Shown here: piece after piece, positions 13,169 to 25,575 of the stretch
Numbering within the stretch: position 1 is the stretch's first letter
Layout of the letters: each line of letters opens with the position of its first letter
Made by a program: the position numbers and the translations under genes
Source: Candidatus Angelobacter sp. Gp1-AA117
Lineage (GTDB): Bacteria > Acidobacteriota > Terriglobia > Terriglobales > Acidobacteriaceae
DNA: 37,853 bases
Direction of reading: 5' to 3'
Assembly: GCA_003223515.1 (NCBI GenBank)
Contig: QHVI01000049.1
Coordinates: 1 to 37,853, forward strand
Notes under the pieces: generated by a model
Seen by the model: the letters and a program-made list of their open reading frames with translations, nothing else
Databases searched by the model: none
What the model was told of the DNA's origin: nothing

Positions 13169-13817
13169 GGAAAATGACAGACGGCTTGGCCGGGAAGACT
13201 GGATGCGGGCGGCGCGGCTGGCCCTGCTGCACACAGGCCCGGACAGCGTGCGCGTGGAAAAGCTTGCGCGCACTTTGAATGTGACCAAGGGCAGCTTTTA
13301 CTGGCATTTCAAAGACCGCAATGAAATTCTGGAAGCCCTGCTGCGCGAGTGGGAAGAGGAGACGGCCACCCTGACCAGAGACGCACTCGCACATCCTGAT
13401 CCGCGGGAAGGCCTGCGCCACCTGCTCGAAATCATCAAGACCACTGTGGTGCTCAGCGAGAGGGGAGAAGCCCCTTCGGATGCGGCCATGTTCGCCTGGG
13501 CCTCGATGTCCGCAGACGTGGCGCGCAGGGTGAATCAGGTAGAGCGCCGGCGTTTGCAGTTCTTCACTCAACTGACCGGCAAACCAGATCGGGCGGAACT
13601 GGCTTATTATGCCTATCTGGGCTTTATCACCCGGCGGCGGCGTGTTCCCGCGGCAGCCGCGGGCTTCCCACTTCTGGCGGAGATGCTGTTTGACTTGCTG
13701 GCTGGCTCGTCCTCCGCTCGATTCCTGGCCAGATCAAAATCCAAATCCATATCCAAAGCAAAGGCAAAATCAAAGAGACGTCATGAAAAAACTTCTTTAT
13801 CTTCTTCTGTTCGTTAG
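13167..13817 (+). CDS. TetR/AcrR-family transcriptional regulator
   Basis: The protein has 216 residues. The N-terminal HTH is classical (VEKLARTLNVTKGSFYWHFKDRNE, about residues 31-54), followed by a ligand-binding helical domain. Residues about 185-206 form an unusual basic tail of alternating Ser, Lys and Ala (RSKSKSISKAKAKSKRR) encoded by a CCAAA-rich stretch. The ATG at 13167 lies inside the second of two near-identical operators, so autoregulation is very likely. The gene lies 173 bp after emrB and overlaps the start of the downstream hydrolase gene by 35 bp. It probably represses itself and the hydrolase; control of the efflux operon is possible, but no copy of this operator was seen before tolC. 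Confidence 0.9.
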   Translation: MENDRRLGREDWMRAARLALLHTGPDSVRVEKLARTLNVTKGSFYWHFKDRNEILEALLREWEEETATLTRDALAHPDPREGLRHLLEIIKTTVVLSERGEAPSDAAMFAWASMSADVARRVNQVERRRLQFFTQLTGKPDRAELAYYAYLGFITRRRRVPAAAAGFPLLAEMLFDLLAGSSSARFLARSKSKSISKAKAKSKRRHEKTSLSSSVR

Positions 13818-15549
13818 TCCGGCGCTGGCAGTTCAGCAATCTCCCTTTGATGCTCCGGCGGCTAAGCCAGAGTTTCAGGATGTCCAGGATTCTTCACTCT
13901 ACCTGCCGATGAAAGACGGTACGCGGATCGCCCTGGATGTGATCCTGCCGAAAGGTCTTGAGTCCGGCCGCAAGTTGCCGGCCGTGATGCGCATCACGCG
14001 TTATGGCCGCATGCCGGTGGATGGATCCATTCCACAGAACTTCAAGTTCTTTCCCGTGCATGGATTTGCCTATGTTCTTATGGATGAAAGAGGCACCGGC
14101 GCCTCTTTCGGGACTGTGCGCTATGGCAAAGCCACTGTGGGTGATATGCGCGAAGTCGTGGACTGGATCGTGAAGCAGCCATGGTCCAATGGGCGGGTAG
14201 GCGCTTTCGGTGGCTCCTACGATGGCACCACGGCAGAGTTGCTGGCCGCCAGCGGACATCCCGCAGTGCGCGCTGTCGCCCCGCTCTACAGCGACTTCAA
14301 CTACTACACCGACCTGCTGCATCCTGGAGGAGTCTTCAACGATTTATTGATCCGCCTGTGGGGCCAGGAGACGGCCGAGGAAGATGCGGGCGCAGCCGCA
14401 AAACGAGTGGAAACAGACAGTGATGGATCGTTGCTGAAATTGGCAGTGGCCGAACATAAGCAGAATTTCGATGTCTACGCAGCGGCCCGCAAAGCCGAGT
14501 TCTTTGATTCACAGGTTTCCGGCCTTACAGGTGCCTGGAATGATATGAGCGTCACGGGAGTAGTTGGGGAACTCAAGAAATCGCAGGTGCCTATGATGAT
14601 TTTTGCCAGTTGGTTCGATGCGGGCACGGTCCAGGGCACGCTGCGGCGCTTTCAGACAATCGATAACCAGCAGCGCGTCTTCATAGGAGCATGGAACCAT
14701 GGCGGGGGTATGGACGCAAACCCTTTCCTGCCTTCCGGTACTCCTCCGGTACCCGGACAACGCCAGCAGACGCTGGAACTGCTGCGCTTCTTTCAGCATT
14801 ACCTCAAGGATGCGCCTGACCAGGCAAGCTCTGATCGCCGTCTTTACTACTACACGGTTGGCGAAAATACATGGCATTCCACCACTGTGTGGCCTCCTTC
14901 CGGACTTTCACCTCTTACGTACTATCTTGAACCGGACCACACGCTGGGTCTGCACCCTGCCGCCGGTCGTGTTTCCGTGCAGTTGCCTGCGACTTCCACC
15001 GGAGATAAAAATCGCTGGAGCTCCCAGGTCACAGGCGGAAATATTTCCTACCGCGAGGTCATGGATAAATTTGAGGCCCTGCCACTATTTCTTGGTCCAG
15101 CTTTAGATACGCCGATAGAGATCACCGGACAGCCGCTGCTTCGTCTCCGTCTTTCCGGCAATATTCCAGACGCCGATGTGATGGCCTATCTCACCGCAGT
15201 CGATCCTCAGGGCAAAACCTACTACTTGACCGAGGGGTATCTTCGGCTCAAGCTGCGCAAAGTCGATCCATCGCAGCAGACACTGCATTCCTATCTGCAG
15301 CGCGACCTCGAAGAGATACCGCAGGGCAAGGAGTTCGAAGCAGACCTGACGCTCTTTCCGGTTTCTGCGCTTCTCCCCAGGGGATACCGATTGAGACTAT
15401 CGCTGGCCAGTGGCGATACCCCTCAATTCGCGAAGAGCAGTCCTTTTGAGGCAAATATTTTTTCAACATCAGAGCTGGAATTGCCCTCAAAACCGCGTCC
15501 TGATTTCACAAGATCTGTTCCCGATGCAGGCGGAAAGGAGCCGCACTAA
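13783..15549 (+). CDS. CocE/NonD-family serine hydrolase (peptidase S15-like), secreted
   Basis: The protein has 588 residues. The frame is open back to 13609, but the ATG at 13783 starts a clean signal peptide (MKKLLYLLLFVSPALA). The alpha/beta-hydrolase core shows DERGTGAS and the nucleophile elbow GGSYDG (S145). The C-terminal third is the beta-sandwich of X-Pro dipeptidyl-peptidase/cocaine-esterase enzymes (PF08530-like; RLRLSGNIPDADVMAYL and the late GYRLRLSLASGDTP segment). It hydrolyses ester or amide bonds, for example acylases of antibiotics or dipeptidases; the substrate is unknown. It overlaps tetR by 35 bp and is followed by the esterase-family gene 61 bp later, so it lies in an apparent resistance block. 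Confidence 0.88.
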   Translation: MKKLLYLLLFVSPALAVQQSPFDAPAAKPEFQDVQDSSLYLPMKDGTRIALDVILPKGLESGRKLPAVMRITRYGRMPVDGSIPQNFKFFPVHGFAYVLMDERGTGASFGTVRYGKATVGDMREVVDWIVKQPWSNGRVGAFGGSYDGTTAELLAASGHPAVRAVAPLYSDFNYYTDLLHPGGVFNDLLIRLWGQETAEEDAGAAAKRVETDSDGSLLKLAVAEHKQNFDVYAAARKAEFFDSQVSGLTGAWNDMSVTGVVGELKKSQVPMMIFASWFDAGTVQGTLRRFQTIDNQQRVFIGAWNHGGGMDANPFLPSGTPPVPGQRQQTLELLRFFQHYLKDAPDQASSDRRLYYYTVGENTWHSTTVWPPSGLSPLTYYLEPDHTLGLHPAAGRVSVQLPATSTGDKNRWSSQVTGGNISYREVMDKFEALPLFLGPALDTPIEITGQPLLRLRLSGNIPDADVMAYLTAVDPQGKTYYLTEGYLRLKLRKVDPSQQTLHSYLQRDLEEIPQGKEFEADLTLFPVSALLPRGYRLRLSLASGDTPQFAKSSPFEANIFSTSELELPSKPRPDFTRSVPDAGGKEPH

Positions 15550-15610
15550 ACTCATTGCTCCTCTGGATCTATGTAAAACTCCCGGAACGGCTCAGCGCAT
15601 CGCATCATAC

Positions 15611-16933
15611 ATGGCTACGAAAACCCTGCAGACCATCCGCAACTCTGCCATAGCGTTGCGCGGAGGAATGGACGATTACGATACGCTGCTTGAGTTTATT
15701 GGGAATGCCCGATTTGTCCTGATCGGCGAAGCCTCGCACGGCACGCATGAGTTCTACCGCAGGCGCGCGGAGATCACCAAAAGGTTGATTGCGGAAAAAG
15801 GTTTCCAGGGCGTTGCCGCTGAGGCCGACTGGCCGGATGCCTACCGGGTACACCGTTTTGTACACGCGCGTGGTCCTGATGCGAATGCCAACGAAGCGCT
15901 GGGAGAGTTCCGCCGCTTTCCCGCATGGATGTGGCGCAACGCCGACGTGCTGGATTTCGTCGGCTGGCTGCGCGATCACAATGACAATCTAGAAAAAGAC
16001 AAGCGCAAAGCCGGGTTCTTCGGTCTTGATCTCTACTCGCTGCATGCTTCCATGCAGGCAGTGCTGGTTTACCTGGATAAAGTGGATCCTGACGCAGCCC
16101 AGCGCGCCCGCTACCGCTATTCCTGCTTTGAACACATCGGAGACGATCCGCAATCTTACGGCTATGCGGCCAGCTTTGATCTGGAGTCGAGCTGTGAAAA
16201 CGAAGTCGTAGCCCAGTTGGTTGAAATGCGCCGCCGGGCCGCTGATCTGGCTACCCGCGATGGAAAAGTAGAACCGGATGAATTCTGGGCCGCCGAGCAG
16301 AACGCCCGCGTGGTCAAGAATGCAGAGCAGTATTATCGCAGCATGTTTCAGGGACGCATCTCTTCCTGGAACCTGCGCGATACGCACATGATGGAGACGC
16401 TCGAATCCATCGCACAGCATCTTGGCCCCGAGTCGAAACTGGTCGTTTGGGCACACAACTCGCATCTCGGTGATGCACGCGCCACGCAGATGGGCGAACA
16501 AGGCGAGCTGAACGTGGGGCAACTTGTCCGTCAAAGTTATGCAAATCAGGCTGTTTTTATCGGATTTTCGACATATCACGGCACGGTGACGGCCGCATCC
16601 GACTGGGGCGGCGATGCTGAGCGCAAGAATGTCCGCCCGGGTCTGCCGAAGAGTTACGAAGAGCTGTTTCATGAGACGGATATAAAAGAGTTCCTACTGT
16701 TGCTTCGTAACAATCCAGGGTTGAAATCGGCTCTAGGAGAGCGGCTGGAGCGCGCCATCGGCGTGATCTATGCGCCGCATTCAGAGCGCGTGAGCCATTA
16801 TTTTCATGCGTGCATAGGCGAGCAATTCGATGCGATCATTCACATTGACAGCACCCGCGCCCTCGAACCGCTGGAACGCAGCAGTATCTGGGAAGAAGGC
16901 GAGTTACCGGAAACATTCCCGTATGCAGTTTAA
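15611..16933 (+). CDS. Erythromycin-esterase family protein
   Basis: The protein has 440 residues. It carries the EreA/EreB family (PF05139) signatures: GEASHGTHEFYRRRAEITKRL with E40, H43 and H46, EADWPDAYRVHRFV, WNLRDTHMMETL, and VVWAHNSHLGDA, whose histidine belongs to the active site. Known members open the lactone of macrolides, but most relatives of this type have no demonstrated macrolide activity. No signal peptide. The frame is open back to 15410; the ATG at 15611 begins the conserved region with no clear Shine-Dalgarno. Neighbouring efflux and hydrolase genes make a detoxification function plausible, not proven. Confidence 0.85.
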   Translation: MATKTLQTIRNSAIALRGGMDDYDTLLEFIGNARFVLIGEASHGTHEFYRRRAEITKRLIAEKGFQGVAAEADWPDAYRVHRFVHARGPDANANEALGEFRRFPAWMWRNADVLDFVGWLRDHNDNLEKDKRKAGFFGLDLYSLHASMQAVLVYLDKVDPDAAQRARYRYSCFEHIGDDPQSYGYAASFDLESSCENEVVAQLVEMRRRAADLATRDGKVEPDEFWAAEQNARVVKNAEQYYRSMFQGRISSWNLRDTHMMETLESIAQHLGPESKLVVWAHNSHLGDARATQMGEQGELNVGQLVRQSYANQAVFIGFSTYHGTVTAASDWGGDAERKNVRPGLPKSYEELFHETDIKEFLLLLRNNPGLKSALGERLERAIGVIYAPHSERVSHYFHACIGEQFDAIIHIDSTRALEPLERSSIWEEGELPETFPYAV

Positions 16934-20666: not shown

Positions 20667-20927
20667 GCAATGTAGTCATAGCAATTAGCAGCTAGCCAAA
20701 CCCAAATCTCAACAGGCTTTTAAAACCTGTGTTTATCTGTGTTCATCTGTGGTGAGCTTTTGGTTTACCAGATCACCCGATCTTCCGGTCACCAGATCAT
20801 CCATCTTTCCGCTTCGTCCGACTCGTCCGATTCGGACTACTCCGTTTGATGCATTGTACAGCCTGCACATCATAATAAAGTCGCATTCATACCTGCTGTA
20901 GATGCGAAATGGAACGGAGGCTTGATC
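20667..20927. promoter_or_regulatory. Divergent intergenic region TPR-HTH / aceA
   Basis: Holds low-complexity repeats (TTATCTGTGTTCATCTGTGG at 20732-20751, then GATCACCCGATC-type and TCGTCCGACTCGTCCGAT stretches). A weak aceA promoter could be TTGATG (20846-20851) with CATAAT (20871-20876), but the 19-nt spacer is long. GGAGG (20916-20920) is the aceA ribosome site. Confidence 0.4.
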
Positions 20928-22235
20928 GTGCAACTTACTGAGACTCAGCTCGAAACCCTATGGGCCAATGAATCCCGCTGGAAGGGCATAACCCGGCCTT
21001 ATTCAGCCAAGGAGGTGGTGCGGCTGCGCGGCACCCTCCACGTGGAATACAGCCTTGCCCGCCTGGGTGCGGAACGGTTATGGGAACTGCTCCATACGGA
21101 AGATTATGTCCACGCCCTCGGCGCATTAACCGGCAACCAGGCCGTGCAGCAGGTACAGGCCGGGTTGAAAGCCATTTATCTCAGCGGCTGGCAGGTCGCC
21201 GGTGATGCTAATCTCGCGGGACAGATGTACCCCGACCAGAGTCTTTATCCGGCCAACAGCGTCCCCGCTGTAGTGAAAGCCATCAACAATGCTTTTATGC
21301 GCGCCGACCAGATTCATCATGCCGAAGGCAAGAACGGCATCCACTGGTTTGCCCCCATCGTTGCCGATGCCGAAGCCGGCTTCGGCGGCTGCTTGAATGC
21401 CTTTGAACTCATGAAGGCCATGATCGAGGCCGGCGCCGCTGGCGTGCATTTTGAGGATCAGCTTGCCTCCGCCAAAAAATGCGGCCACATGGGCGGAAAA
21501 GTTCTGGTACCTGCGCATGAATTTGTCAGCAAACTCACTGCTGCCCGTCTGGCTGCCGATATCTGCGGCATCCCTACTGTCCTGATCGCCCGTACAGACG
21601 CGAATAGCGCCAAGCTGCTGACCATTGACAGTGACATTCGCGACGTGGATTTCCTGACCGGCGAGCGCACCAATGACGGCTTCCTGGGATACAAAGGCGG
21701 GCTGGATGCGGCCATTGCCCGCGGCCTGATCTATGCTCCGTATGCCGACATGATCTGGTGCGAGACCTCTGAGCCTGATATCGATGAGGCGCGGCGCTTT
21801 GCCGAAGCTATCCATGAAAGGTTCCCCGGCAAACTGCTGGCCTACAACTGCTCGCCCTCCTTCCACTGGAAGCGCAAGCTGGACGACACGACCATCGCCA
21901 AATTCCAGCGGGAACTGGGAGCCATGGGCTATAAGTTCCAGTTCGTGACCCTGGCAGGCTTCCATGCATTGAACTTCAGCATGTTCGAGCTGGCCCGCCA
22001 CTACGCCACCGAAGGCATGGCCGCCTACGCTCGCTTGCAGGAAAAGGAATTCCAGAGCGCCGAAACTGCTGGATATTCTGCCGTGCGCCACCAGCGCTTT
22101 GTTGGCACTGGATATTTCGACGAGATCGCCCAGACCATCGCCAATGGACAGTCTTCCACCGTGGCCCTCGCTGGCTCCACTGAAACAGAACAGTTCTATG
22201 CGGAAGAAAATGTGGAACGCAGCGAAGCTGCCTGA
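20928..22235 (+). CDS. aceA: Isocitrate lyase
   Basis: The protein has 435 residues, the normal size of bacterial ICL. The catalytic loop KKCGHMGGK is present (C185, with K183-K184), with the metal-binding region [16 protein letters not shown] and [15 protein letters not shown] before and after it, and [13 protein letters not shown] near the active-site lid. It splits isocitrate to glyoxylate and succinate, the first step of the glyoxylate shunt; malate synthase is not in the window. The start is GTG at 20928: GGAGG lies 7 nt upstream, whereas the in-frame TTG at 20922 is only 1 nt from it. A strong terminator follows. Divergent from the TPR-HTH gene. Confidence 0.96.
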
Positions 22236-22246
22236 TTCGTGTGCTG

Positions 22247-22279
22247 AAGCCTTCCCATCTGCAAAAGATGGGAAGGCTT
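22247..22279 (+). terminator. Rho-independent terminator of aceA
   Basis: AAGCCTTCCCATCT (22247-22260), 5-nt loop, AGATGGGAAGGCTT (22266-22279): a perfect 14-bp stem followed by GTTTCCTTTTC. Confidence 0.9.
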
Positions 22280-22291
22280 GTTTCCTTTTCG

Positions 22292-22429
22292 CTAATTCAT
22301 TCCCGCTGCGGTAGGACAGCCGCCACAGATCGTCCTGATCTGGGTGATAAAGAAGTGGTTGGTTTTATCGTTGGAAAGATTTCTCAATGTTTCCTGATTC
22401 AAGATTAACTTTTTCCTGTTCTCTTTCAC
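22292..22429 (-). CDS. Small peptide resembling a lanthipeptide-type RiPP precursor
   Basis: The peptide has 45 residues. The GTG at 22429 is preceded by AAGGGAG with 6-nt spacing (GGGAG at 22440-22436); a longer frame starts at ATG 22498 but has no ribosome site. A -10-like TAGAAT lies at 22470-22465. Residues 6-18 read KKLILNQETLRNL, the LxLxxETLRxL pattern of leader peptides seen in Bacteroidota and Acidobacteriota natural-product precursors. The C-terminus is TICGGCPTAAGMN, with two Cys and two Thr that could form thioether rings. The family assignment is by eye. No modifying enzyme (dehydratase, cyclase, YcaO, radical SAM) or peptidase-transporter is in the window, so any maturation would act in trans. 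It converges on the aceA terminator. Confidence 0.55.
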   Translation of the reverse strand: MKENRKKLILNQETLRNLSNDKTNHFFITQIRTICGGCPTAAGMN

Positions 22430-22756
22430 GGCAAGCTCCCTTCTTGAACGAGTAGCGCCTGCCAATTCTATGCTGCTTTTTAAACCAGGTTGCAGCATGG
22501 CTGAATCTGTGACATTTCCCGAAAGTCATCGTTTATCCCTTCATCAGTGTCATCAGCGGCAAGGTTTTTGCTTCTCTTCTGGGCTGCCTTTGTGTTCTTC
22601 AGCTTCAATCGGCAGGAATTCAGACAATTTGGTGATCTCCTACTGATCTGTGCTCGTCTGTGTAATCAGTGGTAAAGGGTTTTGATTTTTCAGCGTCATC
22701 AACGTTTATCAGCGGCTAAAGATTCCTTTGCGGTAAATAGCTCTTGGATGCTTATG
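22430..22756. repeat. Intergenic gap with dispersed CATCAGCGG repeats
   Basis: Contains the leader of the small peptide gene (22430-22470) and, beyond it, degenerate repeats TGTCATCAGCGGCAAGG (22548-22564), CTGTGTAATCAGTGGTAAAG (22658-22677) and GCGTCATCAACGTTTATCAG (22692-22711). A related copy is at 6577-6593. No further gene seen. Confidence 0.45.
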
Positions 22757-25252
22757 CTAAAACAACACATCGAAATCCAGCTTAAACCTTCTCCCATAAT
22801 TCCCGAAGAAAGCCCCAAACAGTGGGTCTGCGGTATTCGAATGTGCCAGGATGGCGTTGAAATGGTTGGTCAGGTTCAATCCTCGTACCGATAAACGCAG
22901 CGTGTACTTCTGATTCACCGGAAGGTCTTTCATCAGGCGCGCATCCAGTGAAAAATAGCTGCTGAAGCGCGTAGCGTTGGGTACGCCGATAAAATTCTGG
23001 TAAGCATCCATGATCGAAAATGGAAAGCCTGTGCGGTATTCCGCCATGGGAATGATGCGCATCTTCCATGGTAGACGCGAATCGCCCCAAATGATAAACC
23101 GGTTGGGCACATCGGTAGATGAGCGCACAAAAAAGTCAGGCCGAAAGACCGGGAATGACAGGTTCCCTACGTAGCTGTTCGACTCATTCAGGTCACTGAA
23201 ACTCTGGCTGCGCGTGTAAGTGAAGAACAGCTTCCGTCCATTTTCCTGGCCCACGTTAGCGGTGATCTGGAATTCGCGGTACTCGGCATTGCCGGAGTCC
23301 CTCTCCACCAGCGCGCTTCTTCCATTCTTCAAAGTTTCCGGAGAAACTTCCACCAGCCCATGAGAGTTCCTGAAGCTGTATTTCGCCAGCACTTTGAATT
23401 TGGAAGTGATGGCCCTCTCCACTTCCACGCTCGATCCAATGCTATACGGAGCGAAGTTGCCGGCGCGGTTCCTGCGGCTTACGGAATGCACATGATGCAT
23501 GGAAGACGCAATCACGTTCAGGAAAGTTGTTGGGCCGTCGATTACGTCGCCCTGCGAGCTGAACGTGGTGATCACCTCGCGTGGGTAATTATGGAAAGCA
23601 TACACATTCAGCGGTACCCGGTCATAGAACACGCCCATGCCGCCACGGATAACGGTCTTCTTCTGGTCAATGGGTGGAGTCCACACAAAACCGGCGCGCG
23701 GCGCAAATCGTGTTGTCCCGGTAATGCTCTGCTGCTCCAGGCGCAGGCCGCCATCCAGCGAGAAACTTTGTCTCAGTGACCAGTGATCCTGCACGAAGCC
23801 CGCCATGCCGAAGTCCGTCCTGCTAAAAGGACTCCCGCCGGTAAACTCGATCCGCTTCAGCAGGTTGCCATTCAAATCCTGAATGTTCACCGGACGCGCC
23901 AGAAAACTGCCTTCATCATCGCTGTAAGAAAAGATGCTTCCGGCCTGGAAATTATGCGTGCCGCTGAACTTTACTGGAGTGAAGCTGTAATTCTCCAGCC
24001 ACTCCACCCGCGAAGACTCCCGGCGATGATCGCTGAAGTAGCTGCCCTGGTTGCCTACCGGCGTGACAATCATCTCTCCAATGGCCTGCGGCGTAACCGC
24101 GGCATCAAACTTCTCGCCGGCAACGGTGCTCTGCAGAATGCCGCCCTTCAGCGTCACTCGATCGGTGACTGCCAGCGCCCGCGATTTCATATCGATATTG
24201 GGCGTGACCGCCTGCGGATTGTAGAAGCTCAGGTTCGCATAGCGCGTCTCCTGTGGCGCGAAATGGAATGTGCTGGTCAGCGTATGCGCAGGAGAAAAGA
24301 TGGTATCGAGTTGCGTGAACGAGTTCTCCGAAGTGGTCTTTGTCTCGTTCACCGGGAAAGGCAGGGTGCGCACCGGCGTTTTGTCGATCACCACCTCCGC
24401 CGCGTCGAAGAAGTAAAGCTTCTGGCTGATCAGCGGCCCGCCAAAATTGATATGGGGTGAAACCGATTGCACTCCTACCAGGTGCGCGCTCCGGATGCGG
24501 AAATCCGGGAATGGATCATTCAACTCAAAATCCCACTTCTCCCCACCGCCGCGCGTAACCGTAGAGACCACGCCTCCGGTGAAGCCGCCGTACTGGGAAA
24601 GATACGGTGATGTGGAAACGCTCAGGTTCTCCACCGCATCGATAGGCACAGTCATGCCAAACTGGCCTGTAGCCGGATCGGTCATATCGACGGAGTTCAC
24701 CAGCAGTGCGGAATGCTTTTCCTCTCCGCCTACCATCACCACACCCTGCGGCCCGCGCAGCACATCACCTAGGAGCGGCAGCGCATCAATCACGGTCGCC
24801 GGATGACTGGGAGCATTCTTCATCTGCTGCCGCCCCAGTTCCTGCGGCGCGCTGCCTGCCTGCTCTGCTGCCGCAGGCGCCTGCACCACCACGGTTTCCC
24901 GCTTTTCCAGCCGGGGAACCAGCACCACCTCAATCTCTACGCTTGAAACTCCGGCATCTGGAGTGATCTGCTTGCTGACCGGCTGGAAACCATCTTTGCT
25001 CACATTGAGTTTAAATCCCGCCACCGGCAAACTGGGAGCAGTCGCCTCTCCCTTGTCATTGGTTGTGAGCGAATGCGCTGTGTTATTGATGTTGAGAACG
25101 ACGGTTGCGCCTGCAACTGGGTGGCGATTGTTATCAAGGACGCTGATACGCATCGAGCGCAGGACTTCCGCAGCGTTGAGCACGCAGTTCATTGCGCCGG
25201 CCAGCACAACAAACAATAGCAGGCATCCGGGTCTGATAAACCTTAACTGCAT
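22757..25252 (-). CDS. TonB-dependent-receptor-like outer-membrane protein with carboxypeptidase-regulatory domain
   Basis: The protein has 831 residues. The frame extends to 25435, but the ATG at 25252 opens a signal peptide (MQLRFIRPGCLLLFVVLAGA). Residues about 35-110 are a CarboxypepD_reg beta-sandwich (ISVLDNNRHPVAGATVVLNI). Then comes a plug-like region (VIDALPLLGDVLRGPQGVVM, VENLSVSTSPYLSQYGGFTG) and a long beta-barrel ending in a terminal phenylalanine (FKLDFDVLF). This is the Oar/TonB-receptor architecture abundant in Acidobacteriota. A clear TonB box is not visible. The ligand is unknown; no transporter gene is adjacent. It is transcribed leftward, 323 bp after the next barrel gene. 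Confidence 0.85.
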   Translation of the reverse strand: MQLRFIRPGCLLLFVVLAGAMNCVLNAAEVLRSMRISVLDNNRHPVAGATVVLNINNTAHSLTTNDKGEATAPSLPVAGFKLNVSKDGFQPVSKQITPDAGVSSVEIEVVLVPRLEKRETVVVQAPAAAEQAGSAPQELGRQQMKNAPSHPATVIDALPLLGDVLRGPQGVVMVGGEEKHSALLVNSVDMTDPATGQFGMTVPIDAVENLSVSTSPYLSQYGGFTGGVVSTVTRGGGEKWDFELNDPFPDFRIRSAHLVGVQSVSPHINFGGPLISQKLYFFDAAEVVIDKTPVRTLPFPVNETKTTSENSFTQLDTIFSPAHTLTSTFHFAPQETRYANLSFYNPQAVTPNIDMKSRALAVTDRVTLKGGILQSTVAGEKFDAAVTPQAIGEMIVTPVGNQGSYFSDHRRESSRVEWLENYSFTPVKFSGTHNFQAGSIFSYSDDEGSFLARPVNIQDLNGNLLKRIEFTGGSPFSRTDFGMAGFVQDHWSLRQSFSLDGGLRLEQQSITGTTRFAPRAGFVWTPPIDQKKTVIRGGMGVFYDRVPLNVYAFHNYPREVITTFSSQGDVIDGPTTFLNVIASSMHHVHSVSRRNRAGNFAPYSIGSSVEVERAITSKFKVLAKYSFRNSHGLVEVSPETLKNGRSALVERDSGNAEYREFQITANVGQENGRKLFFTYTRSQSFSDLNESNSYVGNLSFPVFRPDFFVRSSTDVPNRFIIWGDSRLPWKMRIIPMAEYRTGFPFSIMDAYQNFIGVPNATRFSSYFSLDARLMKDLPVNQKYTLRLSVRGLNLTNHFNAILAHSNTADPLFGAFFGNYGRRFKLDFDVLF

Positions 25253-25575
25253 TGAACCGCAGGAGATGCGAGGATTGTACCAACTTTCCCCCGCACCATC
25301 AGCAATTAATCTGAAGTCCCGAAGAACGTCGATGAATGTCCCATGAATGTCAACTACACAAACCGACGTCATCCCGACAGTTTCTCGACGCCAGTGGAGG
25401 ATGGGAGGCCTTATGTTGATCCTGCAAAGCCACACCCAAATGAGAATCCTGATAGAGCGCAGCCGCCCTTGGCTGCGTGGATAAATCTTTCGTATAGGAT
25501 CTGCAAGTTACAAGAAAATGTCTGGGATCAAGATACTCAAGCCAGGAGCTAGCAGCTAAGAGCTGGAAGCTGCCT
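25253..25575. repeat. Intergenic gap with palindromic repeat
   Basis: Contains the promoter region of the receptor gene. A dispersed palindrome CGCAGCC-gccctt-GGCTGCG lies at 25458-25477; related sequences are at 1922-1940 and 33590-33604. A degenerate AGCTAGCAGCTAAGAGCTGG stretch occupies 25546-25565. No gene seen. Confidence 0.5.

Follow-up and report, generated by a model that had tools for sequence, protein, structure and literature searches.

The question raised by this locus is whether a short gene convergent with isocitrate lyase encodes a RiPP precursor and, if so, which enzymes may act on its product. The DNA comes from Candidatus Angelobacter sp. Gp1-AA117 of the Acidobacteriota, whose genome assembly (the source genome, G000) comprises 6.48 Mb in 206 contigs. 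The window, i.e. the whole stretch of 37,853 nucleotides that was analysed, is the entire contig C22 of this assembly.

The peptide gene and its surroundings

The gene occupies positions 22292-22429 of the minus strand and has 45 codons; the assignment is based on the sequence, the paralogues, and codon selection. Read directly from the sequence, the GTG start lies at 22429-22427, the TAG stop at 22294-22292, and the 45-residue product is VKENRKKLILNQETLRNLSNDKTNHFFITQIRTICGGCPTAAGMN. The leader covers approximately residues 1-18 (KLILNQETLRNL), and the core, SNDKTNHFFITQIRTICGGCPTAAGMN, is of a Cys/Thr type. A ribosome-binding site (AAGGGAG, 22436-22442, minus strand) could be read directly 6 nt before the GTG, and a -10-like box (TAGAAT, 22465-22470, minus strand) lies 41 nt before the start, and recurs in the paralogues. 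Neither a sigma-70 promoter (0, against 0.8 in shuffled sequences) nor a -35 element came out of the consensus scan. An alternative in-frame ATG at 22498 would extend the product to 68 aa; the paralogues, however, start at about the GTG position.

The convergent neighbour is isocitrate lyase (20922-22235, plus strand; sequence and Pfam). The two genes converge on a 14-pair hairpin (22247-22279) that lies between their 3' ends and is terminator-like on the plus strand; by number it is not above chance, since one such site was found against 0.9 in shuffled sequences. On the other side, a TonB-receptor-like outer-membrane protein (CarboxypepD_reg and beta-barrel; 22757-25435, minus strand) is encoded 327 bp upstream of the peptide gene on the same strand. 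A functional tie to isocitrate lyase was rejected, as the gene is convergent and no RiPP link was seen. A structured RNA was also rejected: the best Rfam match in 22100-22800 reached 23.9 bits, where the gathering score is 105. Elsewhere in the window (13609-16933), an X-Pro dipeptidyl-peptidase-like (S15) frame is overlapped at its end by that of an Erythromycin-esterase-family protein; this pair is preceded by an MFS transporter and, by sequence reading, by TolC- and HlyD-like frames.

The 45-residue peptide itself has no Pfam match, and hence no Nif11-type leader match was seen for this one peptide scanned. No maturation enzyme was found on contig C22, either by the genome-wide PF04738 and PF05147 searches or by Pfam analysis of 13 window ORFs. 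The original prediction of a GTG-started 45-residue gene with AAGGGAG and TAGAAT elements was confirmed in its coordinates, and eight paralogues were found to share the leader. Its statement that no maturation enzyme is encoded nearby also held within the reach of these PF04738, PF05147, and Pfam searches. The gene had further been called an orphan; this is correct locally, but not genome-wide, as enzymes and sister precursors are present elsewhere in the genome.

A family of nine genes with a common leader

Searches with tblastn and then with leader profiles identified nine leader-sharing genes in the source genome, each on a separate contig. Besides the C22 gene, the leader profile gave C31:12484-12627, C173:38348-38491, C199:41941-42111, C185:45608-45769, C128:1199-1345, C148:82110-82262, C92:11421-11576, and C168:24221-24379. 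Profile A2 was built from seven paralogues and profile A3 from all nine. With A3, the nine matched in the source genome at E 4.6e-11 to 1.5e-7, values that are flattered because the nine are themselves in the profile; the next best match was at 0.005. The C92 and C168 peptides, which are outside A2, still scored 2.5e-4 and 9.3e-4 with that profile. Independent support for the family comes from the first tblastn search together with the selection, composition, and box data. Profile matches on C54 (in a 178-aa frame), C2, C3, C33, C79, C91, and C196, and a second match on C22, were left out because they are weak or lie within other frames; the tblastn matches on C44, C14, and C65 were dropped since they lack the leader.

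All nine leaders contain the motif K-L-x-L-[NHS]-Q-E-T-[LI]-x-x-L, and the leader codons are under strong purifying selection (pS 0.925, pN 0.179; 12 codons, 36 pairs). The C22 peptide gene is thus more than a chance frame, because its eight same-leader paralogues show near-saturated synonymous differences and few amino-acid differences; a chance ORF was rejected on the same grounds of nine members with a leader under selection. The near saturation of synonymous sites also suggests that the copies are not recent duplicates. The gene family and the selection on its leader can be regarded as established.

The cores are of a different character. Across the nine peptides, Cys accounts for 28 of 292 core residues and for none of the 157 residues before the core, and Ser and Thr together make up 24% of the core residues. 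Each core has 2-4 Cys and 5-10 Ser/Thr. In an alignment of seven peptides the cores were unconserved, except for an AGMN tail common to the C22 and C31 peptides. A Gly-Gly at the end of the leader was found in none of the nine; the GG of the C22 peptide sits between its two Cys.

An individual promoter seems likely for most of the genes. In six of the nine, a TAnAAT box precedes the start at 39-46 nt. The interval used for counting, 36-48 nt, was picked after inspection of the data; the 5000 dinucleotide-shuffled sets gave 0.12 such genes on average, and none of them exceeded 3. The C92 gene has such a box at 25 nt, and the C128 and C168 genes have none. The C168 gene starts 30 bp past a tRNA-Ser gene. 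Judged from their ORFs, the genes flanking the paralogues appear mutually unrelated. No sign of dispersal by a mobile element was seen: apart from repeats of 31-50 bp that C173, C199, and C148 have in common, no flanks are shared, no plasmid match was found, and viral contigs gave 69 pattern matches, none of which was confirmed as a relative. A reading-frame segment beginning MNQSSNLYRAKCLCR was seen twice: near the C185 peptide, where it overlaps a tRNA-Ala gene (L046 9262-9564), and directly after the LanC part on contig C48 (L025 1032-1220).

Candidate enzymes and their relatives in other genomes

Contig C144 encodes a LanB and a LanC. The LanB (1089 aa) matches PF04738 at E 2.1e-155 and also PF14028, i.e. 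it has both dehydratase domains. The LanC (439 aa, PF05147) has WCYG and CHG zinc motifs that align with NisC, and its gene overlaps the LanB gene by four bases. No leader peptide of the nine's kind was found in the 19 kb examined around these enzymes. None of the nine precursors lies near the LanB-type genes of C144 or C180, and one, on C128, adjoins a LanC-like gene. Some 2 kb downstream of the C144 LanB gene, the C-terminal part of LanB recurs as a truncated copy with 81% identity and one stop (L021 5200-5415; C144:13202-13459).

Related LanB enzymes were surveyed in the phylum. A LanB match at E 1e-20 was obtained in 33 of 396 genomes, source genome included, and the LanB neighbourhoods of 10 of these 33 genomes were examined. 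A peptide that has the pattern KLxLx[K/R]ET[LIV]xxL, a Gly-Gly, and Cys in its tail was present in five of the ten neighbourhoods (G109, G430, G421, G309, and G176) and was not found in the other five (G007, G402, G307, G154, and a 6-kb contig of G301). Among LanB loci of genome_contigs from outside the phylum, KLxLxKxTLxSL or KLDVTKKTVRVL peptides were present in three of eight (two Hymenobacter, one deltaproteobacterial). This LanB type often, though not always, accompanies this leader type. The closest LanB is that of G007, of the same genus, which is sister to the source-genome LanB with 100/100 support; the LanB tree was used for this pair only, since 8 of its 16 inner branches are open and good resolution is limited to a few pairs. 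G007 has no peptide of this kind genome-wide at E 5. LanB alone therefore does not imply this substrate, given G007 and the five neighbourhoods that lack the peptide. The LanB of G007 stands alone (L098:9138-13110), preceded by a 213-aa frame that ends in ITKGNQQ repeats, and no QET leader peptide accompanies it. Three ETLRNL/ETLHNL peptides of G301, one of them without Gly-Gly, lie on two contigs away from LanB. Of the two GG peptides in G307, one is about 145 kb distant from the nearest LanB and the other is on a different contig (L129 at about 5690, L099, L127, and L128 cover the two genomes). G301 and G307 are milder cases of dispersal.

We consider it probable, at roughly two chances in three, that the C22 peptide is a lanthipeptide-type RiPP precursor modified in trans by the LanB and LanC of C144, as its eight scattered sisters would be. 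Homologues with the conserved leader and a Cys/Thr core do exist, those of the exact kind found in the source genome only, and the genome does encode RiPP enzymes, namely the C144 LanB and LanC. The RiPP assignment of the original prediction thus gains support from the nine homologous precursors, the LanB/LanC pair, and the LanB relatives that are encoded elsewhere close to leaders of this type; its suggestion of an enzyme acting in trans likewise gains from nine precursors and a complete pair on another contig. Resemblance to lanthipeptide precursor families was seen for the leader type, but not at the curated threshold, as the C22 peptide scored 13 of the 22 bits required by NF038153. The original prediction had also called for a look for sister peptides near modifying enzymes; one was found, on C128 beside a second cyclase, but none near the C144 LanB and LanC.

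This second cyclase, an RRE-like LanC (RRE-LanC), lies at the ends of contigs C128 and C48 (L024:2-967, L025:2-700). Both open frames share the residues TIERLRSFGRESAAK, so that the contigs are probably adjacent, with the gene running on from one to the other. Residues 47-125 match Pfam ThcOx weakly (20.5 bits against a cut-off of 27.7), and this part of ThcOx is a leader-recognition (RRE) domain. The zinc motif is WCHG and CCG. The gene is divergent from that of the C128 peptide at a distance of 231 bp, and none of the other eight peptides shares its contig with a LanB- or LanC-type match (PF04738 and PF05147 searches). Matches to the RRE-LanC occur in six of 396 phylum genomes, source genome included. 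Its four full-length homologues (one in G272, two in G340, one in G438) have 760-821 residues and, according to the alignment, carry about 280 extra residues between the RRE-like and LanC parts; a Pfam protein kinase was found in both that were scanned. The lack of the kinase in the RRE-LanC is not a contig-end artefact, because the gap falls mid-frame on C128. No ETL-type leader was found near the RRE-kinase-LanC homologues of G272, G340, and G438. In G272 (L108:5919-9568), the gene for this synthetase overlaps one for a 407-aa partner with no Pfam match.

The source genome also encodes a class III LanKC on C109, and no LanM was seen among its PF05147 matches, which are the LanC, the split RRE-LanC, and the LanKC. 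On C180, two LanB_N-like proteins are encoded beside an NRPS-like protein (C180:23.7-33.9 kb, L022): an 883-aa protein, which matches PF04738 alone, and one in an 866-aa frame flank the 1766-aa NRPS-like protein. Neighbouring frames, named from sequence, are presumably halogenase-like, ABC-transporter-like, and monooxygenase-like. The locus might represent a LanB/NRPS hybrid pathway.

The nine could instead be RiPP precursors of other enzymes: the RRE-LanC with a separate dehydrating partner, the C180 LanB_N-like proteins, or a non-lanthionine enzyme of, for example, the YcaO or radical SAM type. The position of the C128 peptide, 231 bp from the RRE-LanC gene and alone in sharing a contig with a LanB/LanC-type match, speaks for this explanation, as does the absence of such a peptide near the C144 LanB. 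The CCG zinc motif of the RRE-LanC is also that of promiscuous LanMs (a passage of PMC10027976), although its relatives have CCG too. However, the RRE-LanC lacks the kinase of those relatives, so that dehydration must come from elsewhere, and this leader type adjoins relatives of LanB, not those of the RRE-LanC (G272, G340, G438). Modification by other enzymes is considered unlikely, and the C144 LanB and LanC are preferred.

It is still less probable that the conserved N-terminus is not a RiPP leader and that the nine are unmodified small peptides, for instance of a regulatory or metal-handling kind, that share a docking motif. The seemingly unrelated neighbour genes and the missing GG cleavage site would fit such peptides. 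But the motif equals the class I leader LxLxKx5L in all but one residue (PMC7268733) and occurs near LanB in other genomes, and the cores share little beyond Cys and Ser/Thr, the usual RiPP pattern.

The nine-member set was found in none of eight congeners. In the family survey, three of 397 other genomes gave single matches inside 568-661-aa frames, which were taken as chance, and in the phylum survey two of 395 other genomes gave single GG-type peptides; neither contained a counterpart set. The samples overlap, and those of the family and phylum were searched with the Gln-type profile at E 0.001 or 0.01. These surveys speak for close relatives of the nine only, because this profile misses K/R-type peptides: the G309 peptide was matched at E 2.8 and the G109 peptide was not found at E 5. 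A strict DNA pattern, which fits just six of the nine source-genome leaders, gave nothing in genome_contigs. The absence from the congeners, the truncated LanB copy near C144, and one decayed-looking leader at C54 might indicate relics of a lost system that is no longer made, but this is very improbable, as the reading frames are intact in all nine genes and the leader codons remain strongly purified at near-saturated synonymous divergence.

Proposed pathway and comparison with known systems

If the nine peptides are substrates of the C144 LanB and LanC, the leader KLILNQETLRNL would act as the recognition tag for both enzymes. The LanB, an enzyme type that uses glutamyl-tRNA, would dehydrate Ser/Thr of the core; such use is stated in the abstract of PMC9993889. 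Cys thiols would then be added by the LanC, which closes (methyl)lanthionine rings; in the C22 peptide T29 or T33 would be the likely ring partners of C35 or C38. We infer that the pair reaches all nine peptides through the shared leader. One enzyme set would thus make at least nine products, because eight further precursors have this leader in front of other cores. The RRE-LanC of C128/C48, without a kinase, may share or replace the cyclisation step. Leader removal would be due to an unlinked protease, since a GG site is absent, and the product would presumably be exported. As most genes seem to have their own promoter, piecemeal expression of the set is possible.

On the best reading, the C22 peptide may function in the manner of a class I lanthipeptide precursor, with the genes laid out as for the prochlorosins. 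The class I leader LxLxKx5L often ends in GG, according to a part of PMC7268733. In many members this Gly-Gly goes together with a C39 protease. The source-genome peptides resemble such precursors (Bacteroidetes type; NF038153 lant_leader_L1a) in the LxLx-x-x5L spacing, the KL front, the ETLRNL-like helix, and the Cys/Ser/Thr core, and a related LanB is present in the genome. They differ in that all nine leaders have Gln for Lys/Arg and no Gly-Gly end, and their genes are unclustered with LanB/LanC. The C22 leader reads L-I-L-N-Q-E-T-L-R-N-L, where the spacing is exact and the position of the motif Lys is Gln. None of the nine passes NF038153 or NF038158 (13 bits for the C22 peptide against a cut-off of 22 in NF038153). 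The nine were therefore left outside NF038153 and the LxLxKx5L subtype, because neither the motif Lys nor the curated cut-off score was found.

The class II prochlorosins and their ProcM are similar in that numerous precursors are scattered over the genome and combine a single conserved leader with different cores; a CCG-type cyclase is present there too, and the enzymes apparently act in trans. In contrast, separate LanB and LanC enzymes are present here in place of a single CCG-type LanM, the CCG motif occurs in the RRE-LanC, no Nif11-type leader was found (C22 peptide scanned), and the GG site is missing. The precursors number nine here, against 29 for ProcM and 79 for SyncM (a passage of PMC10027976). 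The RRE-kinase-LanC synthetases of G272, G340, and G438 share the N-terminal leader-binding-like domain and the CCG LanC domain with the C128/C48 protein (31-45% identity over aligned parts); the latter lacks the kinase of about 280 residues and is alone in being seen beside a QET leader peptide. More tentatively, and at somewhat less than even odds, the system may be a class I counterpart of the prochlorosins, which would consist of the LanB/LanC pair, a cyclase derived from an RRE-kinase-LanC by kinase deletion, and at least nine scattered, Gln-type, Gly-Gly-free precursors, a set unmatched in the sampled relatives.

According to a passage of PMC10027976, a CCG-type LanM of high promiscuity that accepts diverse cores had been seen in prochlorosin-like clusters alone, to which that paper adds a freshwater cyanobacterial class II case. 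Scattered substrates are mentioned for the class II CCC type in a part of PMC11251773. In the relevant passages of PMC7268733, PMC10027976, PMC11251773, and PMC12328550, scattered or diversity-oriented precursors are named only for class II. No dispersed class I system was found among the matches listed from open-licence papers (including PMC12328550), which is no proof of absence. As described in passages of the two lanthipeptide surveys, one searched within seven genes of LanC (PMC7268733) and the other allowed gaps of up to 10 kb (PMC11251773); dispersed class I precursors would be missed, because both looked only near enzymes.

If the proposal is true, trans-acting, substrate-tolerant lanthipeptide synthesis would also have arisen with a separate LanB and LanC. 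A new tolerant enzyme pair would be on offer, and a second system would be available for asking what dispersed lanthipeptides do.
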